In this document: positions 916-10,581 of the stretch, in pieces
How positions within the stretch are numbered: position 1 is the first letter of the stretch
Layout of the letters: every line of letters begins with the position of its first letter
Source: Methylovulum miyakonense HT12
GTDB taxonomy: Bacteria; Pseudomonadota; Gammaproteobacteria; Methylococcales; Methylomonadaceae
DNA length: 64,000 nt
NCBI RefSeq assembly: GCF_000384075.1
Contig: NZ_KB913025.1
Location: forward strand, 1,458,719-1,522,718
Direction of reading: 5' to 3'
The notes under the pieces: generated by a model
Seen by the model: the letters and a program-made list of their open reading frames with translations, nothing else
The model's database searches: none
What the model was told of the DNA's origin: nothing
Program-made: the position numbers and the translations under genes

Positions 916-1036
916 GCCCAACAAGCCAGTCAAAGGGACTGCCCGCCGTTCCGGCTGGCAAAGTTAGTTTTTTATCACAGGCAGGCGGCTCCGCTGTAAG
1001 CAATCACGCGGGCAGCCCCTTACCGTAACGTTGGGC
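916..1036 (+). repeat. attC site 1
   Basis: GCCCAAC box at 916-922, GTTGGGC at 1030-1036, 121 bp. Inner arms GGGACTGCCCGCC and GCGGGCAGCCCC are complementary, as needed for a folded bottom-strand attC. Follows the gene ending at 873. Confidence 0.92.
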
Positions 1037-1631: not shown

Positions 1632-1753
1632 GCCCAACAAGTCAGTCAAGCCAGACCCGCGCCCAAAGGCGCGGCTTAATGTCTGGGTAGGTTAATTGTC
1701 AGTGTGCTTTTTTTTAGCCCGTACGGCGCGGGCTGCTTACCGTGGCGTTGGGC
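1632..1753 (+). repeat. attC site 2 (divergent)
   Basis: GCCCAAC 1632-1638, GTTGGGC 1747-1753, 122 bp. The inner arms differ from the other sites (GACCCGCGCC...GGCGCGGGC-type), and the last part reads TTACCGTGGCGTTGGGC. Confidence 0.85.
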
Positions 1754-1780
1754 GTCTTTCAGATGAGGGTTCAATCCGCC

Positions 1781-2317
1781 ATGCATCGAACAATTATTTT
1801 TTTGCTTCTACTATTTCCAGCCATCGCATCGGCTGGTTGGATAAACAAAGCAGGGGAGCCACTACCCGACTCGGACAGTCAAAAATCAGTTGGTGACTTC
1901 GGTGCACAGCTAATTTTTGTAGGCGACGAGAACGAACTCTTCAAAAGTTGGGCAACTCCGTCCGAAACTATAGACGTAAAGACCAGTGATAAAGTTGAGG
2001 TAAATGAAGCGATCAATGCCTTCATAATTTTCAGCGGATGTAGGCCAGATAAGCAAGGAAACTGTAACGTTTCCATGCGTTTTCGTGTGCTACAGCCCGA
2101 CGGGAAGGTTTATGCTGACACGCCTCCGATGGAAGTTTGGCATGAAAAACCAGCGCCTCGCGGAAGATCTTTAGGGTTAAGTGTTCAGTATTTAAAGTTG
2201 CGCATAGAACCAAAAGATAAACTGGGCAAATATATCGTCCATGCGCAGGTTCGAGACAATCACACTGAAACAGTTCTCCAACTTCAAGCGCCTTTTATCG
2301 CAAAAAAGGTAAAGTAA
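1781..2317 (+). CDS. secreted protein of unknown function (cassette)
   Basis: 178 residues from ATG 1781. An in-frame ATG at 1763 is possible, but 1781 puts a clean signal peptide first (MHRTIIFLLLLFPAIASAG, cleavage probably after ASA), with GAGGG 1766-1770 as ribosome-binding site. The mature part is soluble and probably periplasmic, with two cysteines (SGCRPDKQGNC) that may pair. The C-terminal half looks beta-rich (MRFRVLQPDGKVY ... GKYIVHAQVRD), as in small adhesin or carbohydrate-binding-like folds, but no family is recognised. Its attC is not next to it: the 4350-bp transposon at 2385-6734 separates it from attC 3 at 6793. Confidence 0.7.
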   Translation: MHRTIIFLLLLFPAIASAGWINKAGEPLPDSDSQKSVGDFGAQLIFVGDENELFKSWATPSETIDVKTSDKVEVNEAINAFIIFSGCRPDKQGNCNVSMRFRVLQPDGKVYADTPPMEVWHEKPAPRGRSLGLSVQYLKLRIEPKDKLGKYIVHAQVRDNHTETVLQLQAPFIAKKVK

Positions 2318-2351: not shown

Positions 2352-2482
2352 ATAGTCTGGCGATGTTGGAGTTTCCGTATTGTGCGGTATTATGTAGCAG
2401 ACGCACAAGGAAGGAATCATGATTTAGCTATGAAATTATTAATAATGTTTTCATAACTAAATCAATTACATTTTTTAGATGA

Positions 2483-3595
2483 TTATTTTTTATTTTTTTT
2501 CGTTAGCAATTCTGGATCATTTTCCCTACTTCCGCCTTTTAAAAAATTCTCTTTACTAATAACAGTTTTTTTCAACTTTTTTTCAAGAGAACGTCTAGCA
2601 TCCCCTGCTATTTTCCCGCCAGAAGCCGCAGCTTCTTTATTTTCCTCAAATCCTTTTGCATTAATTGATATGGCAATTTGAGTCGTTGATTTTGGCTATG
2701 TCACCGTTAGTTGTTGAAAAAATTTTATGTTCGGCGCAAAGCCTTATTTAATGCGGATTGCGGCTTTCGCTGAAAGCCGCGTCATTTAAGGCTTCCACAA
2801 TTAACGGTGACATAGCCTTGATTTTTCGCCAAGCATAGTAAATATTAGCTCCAAGTCAGTCATGTGATCGCGTAGATTTTGGCTTTTCAATCCCTTAAGT
2901 TTTTTGTGGCCTTGAGCATCTATGCCAAATGTTTTTCTTGATATTACGTTTGTGAGACGACCATATTCTTGATCTTTAATGCCTCTTTTCTTCCATTCTC
3001 CCGTAAGTTCATTGCGGGTAACTATTGATCTAATTCTAGCATCAATCCAGTCATCGCTACGGCCTTGTACCTGCCATTGTAATATAGCCCGCTTTACTCC
3101 TATTTCTGGATTTTGTATTTCTTGAATCCTCTCATAACCAACTTTAGATAACCATCTTTTAAATGGCTCTGCTTTTGCAGAAGGAATAGACTGTACTATT
3201 CTAAAAAGGGTTTCTACATTCACGGCATCAGTTAATCTCATTTTTCCGTCTTGTGAAGGCATTTTCAACCTTCCGATTTTATCGGAAAGTTCATTAAATC
3301 CTTCTTTTTCAGTAAGTTGAGATTTTAGGTCAGACCAATATTTACTTGGGCGATCTGTTTCAGTAATGGCCTCTATGGCATCCACTATTGAAAAAAACCA
3401 TTCATTCTCATGAAAGACCTGCCTAACTTTTTTTCCTTTAAATAAAGCTACTTGAGATTCTCCTTCCTGAATAATGTGGTCTTCCTCTAGTTCTTGATTT
3501 TTAACCTCTTCCTTTTTAACATCGGCTATCCGTTTGATAGCCTCATCAATAGGCATATCAAGACCCAATGATTTTTCATATTTTTTATCACTCAT
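2483..3595 (-). pseudogene. Bro-N family antirepressor-like gene, split by a MITE
   Basis: The gene runs from ATG 3595 leftward. As it stands the frame ends at 2801-2803 inside the MITE (264 residues). Residues ~45-250 match the Bro-N/phage antirepressor-like family (FHENEWFFSIVDAIEAIT, KMPSQDGKMRLTDAVN, then QNLRDHMTDLELIFTMLGE). Removing the MITE (2694-2817) and one 8-bp duplication restores one frame that continues STTQIAISINAKGFEENKEA ... RENDPELLTKKNKK and stops at 2483-2485, 326 residues in all, the usual C-terminus of this family. The protein is expected to bind DNA or regulate; its role in the transposon is unknown. The truncated form may still be made. Confidence 0.85.
2694..2817. 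mobile_element. 124-bp MITE
   Basis: Terminal inverted repeats GGCTATGTCACCGTTA (2694-2709) and its complement (2802-2817), with a further internal palindrome (GCGGCTTTCGCTGAAAGCCGC, 2759-2780 region). TTGATTTT is duplicated at 2686-2693 and 2818-2825. It encodes nothing and must be mobilised by a transposase in trans. It interrupts the Bro-N-like gene. Confidence 0.88.
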
Positions 3596-3643
3596 TAGAT
3601 TAATCCTTATTCAATATTGGTGGTTAGCAATGTTTATATTCAC

Positions 3644-3874
3644 TTAATTTAACCTCACATCCCTAACCCCAAGTGCTTTCATGCACTGGGCAAAAAAGGC
3701 AAAGCTGAATGATCCCCTGTTGATTTTAGCCGCCACTGCCTTGTAAGTTTCCTCTATCCCTATTACCGCGAGGCGTTCCGTCAATTCCTCATAGCCTATG
3801 CTGGCCCTTGCCAATTCGGCTTTAAGGGTACTGCTTGCCACTTTGTTCCAGTCTTGTTCCGCTTGCTCTGTCAT
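3644..3874 (-). CDS. DUF6471-like small helical protein
   Basis: 76 residues starting at ATG 3874 (MTEQAEQDWNKV), chosen because ACGGAGAAAACCCA lies at ribosome-binding distance; a longer start at 3919 has none. The sequence (STLKAELARASIGYEELTERLAVIGIEETYKAVAAKINRG) has the DUF6471 pattern, a helix-turn-helix-like regulator-sized domain. It lies 49 bp upstream of the Bro-N-like gene on the same strand, probably co-transcribed with it, and is divergent from the transposase at 4008. It is a candidate DNA-binding regulator of the element. Confidence 0.7.
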   Translation of the reverse strand: MTEQAEQDWNKVASSTLKAELARASIGYEELTERLAVIGIEETYKAVAAKINRGSFSFAFFAQCMKALGVRDVRLN

Positions 3875-4007
3875 TGGGTTTTCTCCGTATTTTTCTTTGG
3901 TGTAAAAAATTCTACACAAATGCAGTATAAATCTCCATATTTGTTTTCATCAATCTACATACATGTTAAAATATCCCCACATTTGGAGATTAACGAGGGT
4001 AAGCAAC

Positions 4008-5027
4008 ATGGCACAACACTTCCTACTATCAGCAAAAGCCCGTTCACTGTCCTTGGTGCAAATCTTCACCCTAACCGACGATTCCGCGTTTGAATTGTTT
4101 TCCGCGTTTGAATTGTTTAAGGAATCCCGTTGGGGCGATGGTGATCCGGTTTGCCCGGCTTGCGGCCTGATTGACAAGCACTACTTCATCAAGACCCGCA
4201 AGCAATGGCGTTGCAAGGGCTATAACCATACGTTCAGCATCACTTCCGGCACTTTGTTTGCACACCACAAGCTGCCCTTGAAAATCTACTTGGGCGCGGT
4301 TGCACTGTACACCAACACCGCAAAAGGCTTTTCCGCCCTGCAATTGTCGCGGGATTTGGACGTTCAATATAAGACGGCGTTTGTGATGATGCACAAGATA
4401 CAGGAATCCCTGATGGATGCCGACACCGCCAAATTGGGCGGCGAGGTGGAGATTGACGGGGCTTATGTGAACGGTTATGTCCGCCCTGAGAACGAAAAGG
4501 CCGACCGTAAAGACTTGCGCTTGGTCGAGAACCAAAACCCTAACAAGCGTTGCATTATCACGATCCGCGAACGCGGGGAAAAAGGCGAAGGCGCGGTAAA
4601 GACCAAAACCTTCGTGGTGAAATCGGAAAACCAAGCCGACATTAAGAAATTGGCGGAAACCCATATTGACGGCGAGGCCACTATCCACGCCGATGATGCC
4701 AAATGCTATGACGCTTTACACGCCAAGTTTGACATGAAGCGCGTCAACCATCAGGAGCGTTACAAAGGTGACAGGGGCGAATGCACCAACCAAGCCGAAT
4801 CTTACTTCTCACGCTTCCGCCGTATGCACAAAGGCCAAGTGCATAAGATGGGCAACCAAAACTTGGATGCCTACGCCAACGAGTGCGGCTACCGTGAAGA
4901 TACCCGCCGCTGGTCAACCGGACAAATATTTGCGGACATTACCGGACGTTGTGCCACCAAGCCGACTTCACGGAACTGGTGTGGGTATTGGCAGGGGAAT
5001 AAGGTTGTGGATAAATTGGCGGCTTGA
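4008..5027 (+). CDS. IS1595-family transposase
   Basis: 339 residues from ATG 4008 (MAQHFLLSAKARS), with GAGGG upstream; an ATG at 3963 would add 15 residues but has no ribosome-binding site. A zinc ribbon lies at ~52-80 (CPACG.....C). The DDE-type nuclease domain contains VEIDGAYVNGYVRPENEK (first acid), IHADDAKCYDAL (second acid) and the NQAESYFSRFRRMHKG block typical of IS1595. The enzyme cuts and joins the 24-bp ends of the surrounding element. An 18-bp tandem duplication near the start (4084-4119) repeats SAFELF. No frameshift or stop, so it may be active. Confidence 0.93.
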   Translation: MAQHFLLSAKARSLSLVQIFTLTDDSAFELFSAFELFKESRWGDGDPVCPACGLIDKHYFIKTRKQWRCKGYNHTFSITSGTLFAHHKLPLKIYLGAVALYTNTAKGFSALQLSRDLDVQYKTAFVMMHKIQESLMDADTAKLGGEVEIDGAYVNGYVRPENEKADRKDLRLVENQNPNKRCIITIRERGEKGEGAVKTKTFVVKSENQADIKKLAETHIDGEATIHADDAKCYDALHAKFDMKRVNHQERYKGDRGECTNQAESYFSRFRRMHKGQVHKMGNQNLDAYANECGYREDTRRWSTGQIFADITGRCATKPTSRNWCGYWQGNKVVDKLAA

Positions 5028-5073
5028 TAAAAAACGTTATTCAAATTCATTTTTACAAAAATTGTAATATATC

Positions 5074-5095
5074 ATTTCAAGTGTATACTTGAAAT
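5074..5095. other. small palindrome after transposase
   Basis: ATTTCAAGT (5074-5082) and ACTTGAAAT (5087-5095) form a 9-bp stem with a 4-nt loop. It could be an operator or weak terminator after the transposase gene. Confidence 0.4.
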
Positions 5096-5128
5096 CAAAT
5101 GGGTAGTCTTGCAACTTTTTGCTACAAA

Positions 5129-5174
5129 ATATTTTACACTTTAATTTACATATATAAATTAAAGTGTAAAATAT
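5129..5174. other. perfect 20-bp-stem AT-rich hairpin
   Basis: The arms at 5129-5148 (ATATTTTACACTTTAATTTA) and 5155-5174 are exact complements with a 6-nt loop (CATATA). It lies 101 bp after the transposase stop and 89 bp before the GNAT-like gene. A second small hairpin GAGCC-TTT-GGCTC follows at 5178-5190. Possible roles are bidirectional terminator, regulator site, or an old insertion scar. Confidence 0.6.
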
Positions 5175-5263
5175 CCGAGCCTTTGGCTCAGGCGTCCATT
5201 GTCTGCTTAAATATTGAAAATACTAATATATTTATAATAACTAAAGTATGGAGTAAATTCATA

Positions 5264-5779
5264 ATGGCAGACATGCTAGACGCGGTTTTAGAGAAAACAT
5301 CTAGTTTTTTTACTGAAAAACTGAAAAAAGGAGTAATGATAACAAGGATAGATGAAAAATCTCTTATAGCATGGAAAGAAACATGGGATGTTATAAATAA
5401 AAGACAGCCTCCAAATGGAGGATGGGATTGGGAATATAAAAATAGTAGTTTTAATAAAAACTACGGAAAATACCTAATTGGAATTGCTGTTTGGAGTGAT
5501 GATTCATTATGTGGACTGGCACTTTGTACTAGAAGCAAGGGAAATGAAGTATTATCCATACACTATATAGAAGGGTCTCCGAATGAAAGTCATCATCTTA
5601 GAGGCAATGTATTTACGATAATAAATTCTGTATTACTGGAATACGCAACACTTATTAAAGCTAAGACCATTAGGATAATTGACCCTGTTGATAATCTTGT
5701 CGATTTTTATAAATCATTCGGATATAAATTAAGCAAAAAACTCCTGTCCAGAAGAAAATTTTGCGAAAGAGGAATATAA
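5264..5779 (+). CDS. GNAT-like acetyltransferase passenger protein
   Basis: 171 residues from ATG 5264, preceded by TATGGAGTAAATTCATA (GGAG box); longer starts upstream would cover the hairpins and lack a ribosome-binding site. The C-terminal half has GNAT features: a central beta strand (LIGIAVWSDDSLCGLALCTR), an HHLRGNVFTIINSVLLEYA helix in the place of the acetyl-CoA helix, and a terminal VDFYKSFGYKLSKK strand-helix. The classic Q/RxxGxG/A loop is weak (SHHLRGN). Substrate unknown. AT-rich compared with the transposase. It may be co-transcribed with 5781-6155 (1-bp gap). GNAT passengers in mobile elements can be toxins, but no antitoxin is recognised. Confidence 0.65.
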   Translation: MADMLDAVLEKTSSFFTEKLKKGVMITRIDEKSLIAWKETWDVINKRQPPNGGWDWEYKNSSFNKNYGKYLIGIAVWSDDSLCGLALCTRSKGNEVLSIHYIEGSPNESHHLRGNVFTIINSVLLEYATLIKAKTIRIIDPVDNLVDFYKSFGYKLSKKLLSRRKFCERGI

Positions 5780-5780
5780 A

Positions 5781-6155
5781 ATGAACGCGCTAACATGCTG
5801 CGATGATTTTAGTTTTGAAGAAAAAATCATAGCGTATCATCTTCAAGTTACTGTAACTTTGAACGACAAGCAGTCAAAATCTTCTCGTATTGTGTTTCAA
5901 AAAGACTTCCCAATACCATTAGCTATCCTTTTAGCTATTTTTTTAGCCATTATAATTATTCCAATTCTTGCTTTGTTATTTGTATTTGGGTTAATTTTTT
6001 GGGGTTTGTCATTTTCAAAAAATGACAGTTCCGAGCTAACTTATGAAGAAGCTAAAGAATATTTAAATAGTGGTAAAGGTTATCTTAATAATTTATCTGA
6101 TAAAGATAATAATGACTTGATTTTAAAGAGAGATAACGCGCCTTTAGGTTTATGA
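5781..6155 (+). CDS. small membrane protein (transposon passenger)
   Basis: 124 residues, starting 1 bp after the GNAT-like gene; AAAGAGGAATATAAA gives a good ribosome-binding site inside the end of that gene. One long hydrophobic stretch at ~47-77 (PLAILLAIFLAIIIIPILALLFVFGLI, broken by PIL) would form one long or two short membrane spans. The C-terminus is polar (YEEAKEYLNSGKGYLNNLSDK). Family not recognised. Tight coupling to the GNAT-like gene suggests a common job. Confidence 0.65.
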   Translation: MNALTCCDDFSFEEKIIAYHLQVTVTLNDKQSKSSRIVFQKDFPIPLAILLAIFLAIIIIPILALLFVFGLIFWGLSFSKNDSSELTYEEAKEYLNSGKGYLNNLSDKDNNDLILKRDNAPLGL

Positions 6156-6163
6156 TCTAAAAT

Positions 6164-6191
6164 AAAAAGCCCACATAAAGTGGGCTTTTTT
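6164..6191. terminator. rho-independent terminator, usable in both directions
   Basis: AAAAAGCCCAC (6164-6174), loop ATAAA, GTGGGCTTTTTT (6180-6191). T and A tracts on both sides suit the convergent genes ending at 6155 and 6222. Confidence 0.9.
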
Positions 6192-6221
6192 ATGCTTGAT
6201 AGAAATATCCAAGCACCCTGT

Positions 6222-6650
6222 CTAAACCATATCCCAAACACATCCTCCTGCGTCATCCTTGCCTATATTCACCACTAGGCCGCTTTTTTTCTGCCTACCC
6301 AGTATCGTTAATATCGTGGCCTGAAAGTCCCGTTCGTTGACTTCCGTTAATCCTTTACGGGACTTTGCCTCTTGGGCGATTTCCTTGGTGCTTAATGGCT
6401 TGCTTGACTCCCTCAATATATCCAATACCATCCGGTGGGCTTCGCCGTGCTTAAAGTAGAGGTTTCTTTTTTGATGCCGTTTGGCCTTGATTAAATCGGT
6501 GCTGAATTCCGGCTCGAATAGCCTGATGGTTGCGTCCAGAAGCTTAACGTCCTGCAAGAGCCGGACAACTTCCTTCCTGTGGTGGTCGACCATTCCGGCA
6601 AGCTCGGAACGCTTCGCCACCAGTGCGCTTATGACGTGGGTTTCTGCCAT
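6222..6650 (-). CDS. coiled-coil plus winged-helix-like protein (transposon passenger)
   Basis: 142 residues from ATG 6650, with CAGGAAAGTAA as ribosome-binding site. Residues 1-50 are helical and probably coiled (ISALVAKRSELAGMVDHHRKEVVRLLQDVKLLDATIRLF). Residues ~70-135 look like a winged helix (HRMVLDILRESSKPLSTKEIAQEAKSRKG, then a wing-like end GGCVWDMV). Such proteins occur in phage and transposon settings as DNA-binding regulators. The gene lies at the right end of the transposon, 60 bp inside the terminal repeat, pointing inward, and may read from a promoter close to the end. Confidence 0.65.
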   Translation of the reverse strand: MAETHVISALVAKRSELAGMVDHHRKEVVRLLQDVKLLDATIRLFEPEFSTDLIKAKRHQKRNLYFKHGEAHRMVLDILRESSKPLSTKEIAQEAKSRKGLTEVNERDFQATILTILGRQKKSGLVVNIGKDDAGGCVWDMV

Positions 6651-6792
6651 TTACTTTCCTGTTTAGGTGTATAATGGCTTGTATTTTAATGGGTTATGTT
6701 ATGGGTGGCTTTGTGCGTCTGCTACATAATACCGGTATTGTGCAGCGTTTGGGTGCAGCTGGCTTTTCCAGTTCGAACCTAAATATTCTCAT

Positions 6793-6910
6793 GCCCAACA
6801 AGTCGGTCAAAGGGACTGCCCGCCATTCCGGCTGGCGAAGTTTTTAGTTTTCAAAGGTAAGCGGCTCCTGAAAGCCATCGGGCGGGCAGCCCCTTACCGT
6901 AACGTTGGGC
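6793..6910 (+). repeat. attC site 3
   Basis: GCCCAAC 6793-6799, GTTGGGC 6904-6910, 118 bp, same subtype as site 1. It originally ended the cassette of the gene at 1781-2317, before the transposon inserted. Confidence 0.92.
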
Positions 6911-6933
6911 GCAGATTGACTGTGAGGAACTGT

Positions 6934-7350
6934 GTGTCAGTTTTGATCGACAAAAGCAAGTGGTCAAACTCAAGCCGAAGGTCGTCGGAATACTCAGGCC
7001 AGTTCCTGAACGTGGAATCTTACAGCGAATTCATTGATTACCACTGTAAAAAATGCTCTCGTCATTGCGTCTTTACACCGGAAGAACAGAAGGTCGCTTT
7101 CGAAGTGGATAAGAAAATCATTCATTATGTGCCGTCGCTTTGTTCAGAATGCTCAAACAATTACGAGGTGCTAAAAGCTCTAATCAGTAAATATCAAAGT
7201 ACTTGGAACCGTGACCGAGAGTTTTTGGCTTCGAACAGAAAATTTGTTAGCGACTGGCTACTTGCAGTTAAAGAAAAGAATTCTTATGGAAAACGAGTGG
7301 ACTTGAGCAGGGAAAGAATGTTAACTAAATTGCTCCGAGATATGCCGTGA
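6934..7350 (+). CDS. zinc-ribbon cassette protein
   Basis: 138 residues if GTG 6934 is used, which places GAGGAAC (6923-6929) as ribosome-binding site; an in-frame TTG at 6916 is possible but sits only 6 bp from the attC core. A treble-clef or ribbon-like domain: HCKKCSRHCVFTPEEQKVAFE near 37-58, with a second pair LCSEC near 75-79. This pattern (CxxC...FTxxEQ...CxxC) is that of probable zinc-ribbon proteins of unknown role. The C-terminal half is helical and charged. No signal peptide. Carried as a single-gene cassette between attC 3 and 4. Confidence 0.75.
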   Translation: MSVLIDKSKWSNSSRRSSEYSGQFLNVESYSEFIDYHCKKCSRHCVFTPEEQKVAFEVDKKIIHYVPSLCSECSNNYEVLKALISKYQSTWNRDREFLASNRKFVSDWLLAVKEKNSYGKRVDLSRERMLTKLLRDMP

Positions 7351-7490: not shown

Positions 7491-7610
7491 GCCCAACAAG
7501 TCGGTCAAAGGGACTGCCCGCCATTTTGGCTGGCAAAGTCAGTTTTTTTCACAGGTAAGCGGCTTCGCTGTAAGCAATCCCGCGGGCAGCCCCTTACCGT
7601 AACGTTGGGC
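7491..7610 (+). repeat. attC site 4
   Basis: GCCCAAC 7491-7497, GTTGGGC 7604-7610, 120 bp, same subtype as sites 1 and 3. Confidence 0.92.
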
Positions 7611-9797: not shown

Positions 9798-9921
9798 GCC
9801 CAACAAGTCGGTCAAAGGGACGCGCCGCCCGTTGGCGGTTTTGGAGTTTTGTTTTTTTATTAAGGTTCGGCGGCTTCGTTTCGCTTTCGTTGGCGGCGCG
9901 CCCCTTACCGTAACGTTGGGC
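9798..9921 (+). repeat. attC site 5 (second subtype)
   Basis: GCCCAAC 9798-9804, GTTGGGC 9915-9921, 124 bp. Inner arms GGGACGCGCCGCCCGTTGGC and GGCGGCGCGCCCC differ from the GGGACTGCCCGCC subtype. Shares this subtype with sites 8 and 9. Confidence 0.92.
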
Positions 9922-10462: not shown

Positions 10463-10581
10463 GCCCAACAAGCCAGTCAAAGGGACTGCCCGCCGTTCCG
10501 GCTGGCAAAGTCAGTTTTTTTTCACAGGTAAGCGGCTCCGCTGCAAGCAATCACGCGGCAGCCCCTACCGTAACGTTGGGC
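10463..10581 (+). repeat. attC site 6
   Basis: GCCCAAC 10463-10469, GTTGGGC 10575-10581, 119 bp. Near-identical to site 7 except for single-base losses in runs (GCGGCAGCCCCTACC against GCGGGCAGCCCCTTACC). Confidence 0.9.

Follow-up and report, generated by a model that had tools for sequence, protein, structure and literature searches.

Transporter insertion sequences (ISs) carry passengers along with their transposase inside one pair of IS ends. They are covered in the accessible text of PMC3129680, and the corresponding text of PMC11891212 presents ISNha5, of the IS1595 family, as a transporter IS with transcription-regulator passengers; both cite Siguier, Gagnevin and Chandler (2009). The element described here lies in a 64,000-nucleotide stretch of the Methylovulum miyakonense HT12 genome (contig NZ_KB913025.1, positions 1,458,719 to 1,522,718; the whole stretch is hereafter the window), and is most likely an ISNha5-like member of the IS1595 family, a transporter IS that forms a single autonomous unit and acts as a small shuttle, its cargo held in two slots. 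Members of the ISNha5 group have CGG ends, an 8-bp target duplication and a length of about 3.4–7.9 kb; the window element has CGG ends and measures 4,350 bp. Set beside ISNha5 by description, it shows the same plan of an IS1595 transposase and passengers inside one end pair, and its DUF6471, winged-helix and Bro-N proteins may be regulators comparable to the ISNha5 passengers. The first-pass annotation of this DNA had not recognised the element as described. The general kind, a transporter IS with regulator passengers, including ISNha5, is already published, as the accessible text of PMC11891212 indicates. The available ISNha5 descriptions mention no exchangeable slots, no core of DUF6471 and winged-helix genes and no defence cargo, all of which are seen in the present elements, and no description of a fixed core with exchange slots and a run of defence genes was found in the open-access literature, among the matches listed and in the portions of text accessible.

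Defence genes are also carried by Tn7-like transposons, the cargo of which includes many defence systems according to the available portion of PMC8649781. The present elements are likewise transposons with defence cargo, whereas they possess a single DDE transposase of another family and are mostly 3–10 kb long, and none of the genes in the window element was recognised as a targeting gene. BstA is a prophage defence protein, and 15 of 72 homologues have no phage genes nearby (PMC8585504, accessible text). A protein matching the BstA profile occupies the first slot of a relative, L019, but it resides in a 4-kb transposon and not beside a prophage repressor.

Anatomy of the IS1595-family element

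The element and its core features are located in the window as follows.

2385–6734: whole IS1595-family element, 4,350 bp, delimited by inverted ends and a target duplication
2377–2384: left copy of the 8-bp target duplication, GTATTGTG
2385–2408, forward strand: left terminal inverted repeat, 24 nt, CGGTATTATGTAGCAGACGCACAA
3644–3874, reverse strand: DUF6471 small protein (PF20075, 5.9e-26), divergent from the transposase, core in relatives
4008–5027, forward strand: IS1595-family transposase, 339 aa, core; open full-length frame with profile matches
6222–6650, reverse strand: long-helix and winged-helix protein at the right end (model confidence 87), core, recurrent in relatives
6711–6734, reverse strand: right terminal inverted repeat, 24 nt
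6735–6742: right copy of the 8-bp target duplication, GTATTGTG

The two arms are 100% complementary over 24 nt, and GTATTGTG stands on both sides of the element; an 8-bp target duplication is a feature of the IS1595 family in the accessible part of PMC8101967. The transposase contains both the DDE_Tnp_IS1595 domain (Pfam, 3.3e-43) and an N-terminal zinc ribbon (Zn_ribbon_IS1595, 4.2e-13), and scores 152.8 bits against the NCBIfam profile transpos_IS1595 (cut-off 75). It aligns along its full length with the other full-length transposases (31 aligned, including those of the window and L006). The first-pass annotation had proposed an IS1595-type element with an intact transposase, perfect 24-bp inverted ends and an 8-bp duplication, and all of these were borne out. 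With up to three mismatches allowed, the element end occurs only twice in the 4.69-Mb single-contig genome, and a reversed control pattern does not occur. Mobility is well supported by this anatomy, from which transposition itself is inferred: the transposase would act on the 24-bp ends and carry everything between them to a new site, with formation of an 8-bp duplication. The transposase gene also contains an 18-bp in-frame tandem duplication at 4082–4118 (six residues), which is not present in the nearest relative, L003.

The winged-helix protein has a model with a predicted local distance difference test score (pLDDT) of 87, in which a 44-residue helix leads into a winged helix, and its best matches in a fold search were mostly winged-helix DNA-binding domains, none at an E value of 0.001 or below. 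It would probably be an end-binding helper or a regulator, and the divergently encoded DUF6471 protein probably regulates expression of the transposase. No paper on DUF6471, or on the defence candidate family PDC-S13 matched by the Bro-N cargo, was found in the open-access literature.

Recurrent core and proposed exchange slots among relatives

Forty loci were tested for ends, with a score raised by inverted ends, by the end motif and by a duplication. The first-pass annotation had suggested looking for the ends in other genomes, and 34 elements were delimited, corresponding to 33 distinct ones with the window element included; L005 and L006 are two copies of one element and were counted once, and L020, L044 and L003 duplicate L005, L008 and L019, respectively. 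Loci L024, L045, L046, L052, L055 and L066 had no convincing ends and were left out, and L004, L007 and L023 were included on inverted ends alone. The target duplication is an exact 8-bp repeat in 26 of the 33 elements and agrees at 7 of 8 positions in two more, and element lengths range from 1,132 to 9,782 bp. The possibility raised at first pass that the ends flank only the transposase in every other copy did not hold: further open reading frames (ORFs), regarded as cargo, are present in 28 of the 33 elements, and only five (L007, L063, L064, L067 and L070) consist of the transposase with or without the winged-helix gene.

Profiles built in this analysis detected DUF6471 in 18 of the 33 elements, all of them cargo-bearing and none among the five simple ones, always divergent from the transposase. 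The winged-helix gene was detected in 28 of the 33; in 24 of these it lies close to the right end in convergent orientation, and in four (L048, L054, L057 and L065) it is located after the transposase and reads the same way. At the profile threshold it was not detected in L026, L058, L060, L061 and L064. Judged by this recurrence, DUF6471, the winged-helix gene and the transposase are a recurrent core and not passengers. The five passenger genes of the first-pass annotation are all present as ORFs, but two of them, DUF6471 and the winged-helix gene, belong to the core, and the Bro-N gene is broken by a nested miniature inverted-repeat transposable element (MITE) that had been overlooked at first pass.

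Comparison of the window element with its nearest relative L019, which comes from the same genus, revealed three blocks shared at the DNA level (1–42, 1259–2644 at 81% and 3816–4350 at 79%, in window-element numbering), which correspond to the left 42 bp, to DUF6471 with the transposase, and to the winged-helix gene with the right end; the common left end reaches to about window position 2426. Between these blocks, no similarity was found on either strand at an E value of 0.01, inverted ends aside. L021 and L023 likewise share 27 bp of the left end, the DUF6471–transposase block and 55 bp of the right end. This three-block sharing indicates that cargo is exchanged at two places bordered by the ends of core genes, namely slot 1, from the left end to DUF6471, and slot 2, from the transposase to the winged-helix gene, the contents of which would be swapped wholesale among elements. 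Slot 1 is often occupied by an ORF of about 300 aa. As the borders of exchange can be placed with a precision of tens of bases, the capture of passengers is testable. That the unit takes its cargo along when it moves is directly evidenced by L005 and L006, two 3,243-bp copies in one genome that are identical but are flanked by different duplications.

The elements were found in gammaproteobacteria (Methylococcaceae, Methylobacter and Thiothrix), in alphaproteobacteria (plasmid records) and in one bin labelled Anaerolineales, the remaining hosts being genomes of the same order, class or phylum. The contig labelled Anaerolineales, possibly misbinned, carries L004, the transposase of which is 85% identical to that of the window. 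The transposase was found in 8 of 251 genomes of the order (E 1e-40), 3 of 369 of the class (1e-60) and 17 of 398 of the phylum (1e-60), and, with the transposase of a distant carrier as the query, in 12 of 289 genomes of that carrier's class (1e-70), all counts including the own or query genome; the element group is therefore sparse but wide. L026, one of the 28 cargo-bearing elements, is a distant member with a transposase 35–40% identical. Outside the 33, three more elements (L087, L091 and L092) have exact duplications, and L088, L089 and L090 were not delimited. L093 (5579–8884), also outside the 33, has ends alike at 23 of 24 positions, and its flanking 8-mers are reverse complements of each other without a direct repeat. 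L048 (5946–15727, 9.8 kb) has perfect ends, one 8-bp duplication, two transposase genes, one of them in pieces, and an Eco57I-type pair, and could be one element within another.

Candidate defence genes in the cargo and rival explanations

Cargo genes were matched by profile as follows.

L019: BstA in slot 1 (3.9e-117) and RhuM/PDC-S05 (2.7e-98); PADLOC, Pfam
L025: type III Res and Mod; Pfam
L047: methylase and specificity subunit; Pfam type I S domain, best PADLOC match type IIG
L048: Eco57I-type restriction-methylase and methylase; Pfam
L054: anti-phage dCTP deaminase, above the NCBIfam cut-off
L053: RmrA (3.5e-148); PADLOC
L021: PD-Lambda-2_B (1.1e-40); PADLOC
L004: HicA and HicB beside a P63C protein; Pfam
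L061: Panacea antitoxin; Pfam
L023: trypsin-like PDC-S45 (9.7e-18); PADLOC
Window element: Bro-N, PDC-S13 (1.1e-90); PADLOC
L065: weak match to PDC-S07 (7.1e-13), not among the 11 counted below
L068: inositol monophosphatase
L050: ParA-like ATPase
L026: inverse autotransporter domain

Defence or toxin–antitoxin families were matched in the cargo of at least 11 of the 28 cargo-bearing elements, the window included, a lower bound because only part of the cargo ORFs was scanned singly (19 of 90 with PADLOC and about 50 with Pfam). An IrrE-type family is also among the Pfam matches. The cargo ORFs were called with a simple longest-first procedure (at least 70 or 90 aa), and those of small size could be artefacts. 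The phage or defence flavour noted at first pass, as opposed to resistance genes, agrees with the cargo matched here. An excess of defence genes in the cargo is suggestive, and the slot genes, often anti-phage or toxin–antitoxin by profile match, suggest that the group may shuttle virus-fighting genes between bacteria. If the enrichment holds, non-core DNA between two CGGnnTTATGTAGCA ends would represent candidate new defence systems. A further-reaching proposal, put forward tentatively, is that this IS1595 lineage of Gamma- and Alphaproteobacteria might be a dedicated two-slot platform for anti-phage exchange, with a fixed core and swaps at core-gene borders, and that passengers such as the GNAT-fold and membrane-protein pair of the window could be undescribed defence or toxin–antitoxin systems.

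Several observations weigh against the interpretation of the group as a two-slot shuttle of defence genes. In 16 of the 28 cargo-bearing elements no recognised defence gene was found among the scanned ORFs, and L065 has only its weak match. L021 and L053 each contain one recognised defence gene, no restriction subunit was identified among the cargo of L047, most systems are not shown to be complete, and the PDC labels denote candidates and not proven systems. PADLOC matches were lacking for four of ten cargo proteins (L004 P63C, L047 306 aa, L061 Panacea and L049 317 aa), and also for the window GNAT-fold and 124-aa proteins and a 389-aa protein of L053. The PADLOC scan covered 90 of 93 cargo ORFs (L006 copies excluded) and 90 of 312 flanking ORFs (the first 90 of a random 140); at 1e-5, 147 families were matched in the cargo and 7 in the flanks, a contrast inflated because several families overlap on one protein. 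When single ORFs are counted, matches occur in at least 13 of 90 in the cargo (19 singly scanned) and in 5–7 of 90 in the controls, without statistical significance (Fisher 0.08–0.24). A threshold of 1e-30 leaves 10 matches in the cargo and 1 in the controls (Fisher 0.009); this cut-off was picked after seeing the data, one of the ten was deduced from pooled results, and another control narrowly misses it at 8.9e-30. The sole control match beyond the cut-off is a WYL regulator. In some elements (e.g., L007, L008, L047, L063 and L067–L071) the winged-helix gene directly adjoins the transposase, and slot 2 holds nothing. A search of 251 genomes of the order (two candidates scored per genome) for the exact empty form of the integron-type cassette in which the window element sits, a check proposed at first pass, yielded no such site, the closest being a cassette end 76% similar without the insert.

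Among the alternatives, a general transporter IS is rather unlikely; any gene would enter its slots, and the defence genes would reflect their commonness in mobile DNA. Such an IS would accommodate the inositol monophosphatase, the ParA-like ATPase, the inverse autotransporter domain of the distant L026 and the many family-less proteins, as well as the non-significant contrast by ORF, whereas seven elements hold named defence families (restriction-modification in L025, L047 and L048, BstA in L019, dCTP deaminase in L054, PD-Lambda-2_B in L021 and RmrA in L053), against one control match below 1e-30.

It is unlikely that Bro-N, P63C, RhuM and BstA are phage-type antirepressors serving the element, in regulation or immunity, and not cell defence. 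Bro-N and KilA-N are antirepressor-type DNA-binding domains, RhuM weakly matches the phage anti-repressor Ant (0.0016), and the ORF of about 300 aa is frequent in slot 1. A KilA-N domain is also present in BstA, but BstA homologues are protective against phage in the accessible text of PMC8585504, and the restriction-modification and deaminase cargo appears ill-suited to a regulatory role.

A degenerate, immobile relic is improbable. The single-copy state of the window element in its genome, the split Bro-N gene and the six-residue transposase duplication are compatible with decay, but the ends are perfect, the duplication is exact, and the transposase is open and alignable over its length. 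A true compound transposon, with a passenger block between two ISs as the first-pass annotation had it, is scarcely credible: although L048 has two transposase genes within one end pair, the window element is a single-unit transporter IS with one transposase, one perfect end pair, no flanking IS copies and no further end copy in the genome (up to three mismatches), which rules out the compound structure for it.

Window cargo, nested repeat and host cassette

The remaining features inside the window element are listed below.

2483–2692, reverse strand: remainder of the Bro-N gene past the MITE, resembling the tail of the homologue L074
2694–2817: nested MITE, 124 bp, with 25-bp ends (92%), GGCTATGTCACCGTTA, and the duplication TTGATTTT at 2686–2693 and 2818–2825
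2801–3595, reverse strand: slot 1 cargo, front part of the Bro-N gene, 264 aa, its final residues and stop inside the MITE
5264–5779, forward strand: slot 2 cargo, putative GNAT-fold protein, 171 aa, by fold comparison and phrog_4350 (2.3e-14)
5781–6155, forward strand: slot 2 cargo, a protein of 124 aa that includes a single long hydrophobic segment and matches no family in Pfam, PADLOC, NCBIfam or PHROGs
6164–6190: terminator-like hairpin where the 124-aa gene and the winged-helix gene face each other with their 3' ends (five such sites found in the element, with 3.9 expected by chance)

Slot 1 of the window copy would once have held a Bro-N defence candidate, now split by the MITE, and slot 2 would hold a pair of a GNAT-fold and a putative membrane protein. 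The front part of the Bro-N protein matches Pfam Bro-N (3.7e-8) and phrog_15286 (2.9e-65), and its match to PDC-S13 covers positions 4–218 of 286 in the profile, after which the MITE follows. The gene is probably inactive because it is split by the 124-bp repeat. At least 18 full-length copies of the MITE at 98% identity or more, the window copy included, are present in the genome (40 of 59 candidates scored). Its 8-bp duplication, and shorter matches to its ends that flank IS1595-type transposase matches in the same genome (e.g., around G000:C1:4254045-4255097), liken it to IS1595-family MITEs, with nothing unusual.

A Bro-N homologue on a viral contig, L074, is 71% identical over residues 1–259. 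An uninterrupted PDC-S13 homologue with 59% identity over the same residues is located in another genome of the order (L094), as the second gene of a 2,011-bp element (5244–7254) with 24 of 24 end bases matching and its own duplication, TTATTTTA. The transposase of this element matches the in-house profile, yet it is 28% identical to that of the window; with the Bro-N homologue inside, two distinct IS1595-type lineages have therefore taken up the same kind of passenger. The Bro-N homologues L095–L097 have neither a transposase match nor a TTATGTAGC core nearby.

The GNAT-like gene proposed at first pass is present, although it has no Pfam match and its assignment rests on fold comparison of a middling model: the top Foldseek matches are GNAT acetyltransferases with a probability of about 1.00, but with template modelling (TM) scores of 0.37–0.50, for a single-sequence model with a pLDDT of 63. 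Relatives of this putative acetyltransferase occur on plasmids (47 records) and in E. coli phages (four records), without reaching 60% identity in any case; none was found in viral contigs, and three neighbourhoods showed no repeated partner gene.

A phage-borne origin of the element was considered and is unsupported. The window transposase has no relative in 50,697 phage records at an E value of 1e-20, and neither the transposase nor the winged-helix protein has one in viral contigs, in searches reaching close relatives only.

The element was placed inside a cassette at first pass, in agreement with the attC-like sites on both sides of the insertion.

1632–1753, forward strand: attC-like site upstream of the host cassette, by core-site motif only
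1742–2317, forward strand: ORF of the cassette that received the element
6793–6910, forward strand: attC-like site closing the host cassette, by core-site motif only

The element thus sits behind the cassette's own ORF, in an integron-type gene cassette bounded, on motif-level evidence, by the core-site pairs at 1632–1753 and 6793–6910. By kinship, the host is a methanotroph; the closest relative is in a Methylococcaceae bin (same genus), and the next is in Methylobacter (same family). Six attC-like sites in the window (916–1036, 1632–1753, 6793–6910, 7491–7610, 9798–9921 and 10463–10581) form an integron-type cassette array, and the integron integrase of the genome is encoded at G000:C1:4071082-4072026, 2.6 Mb from this array.

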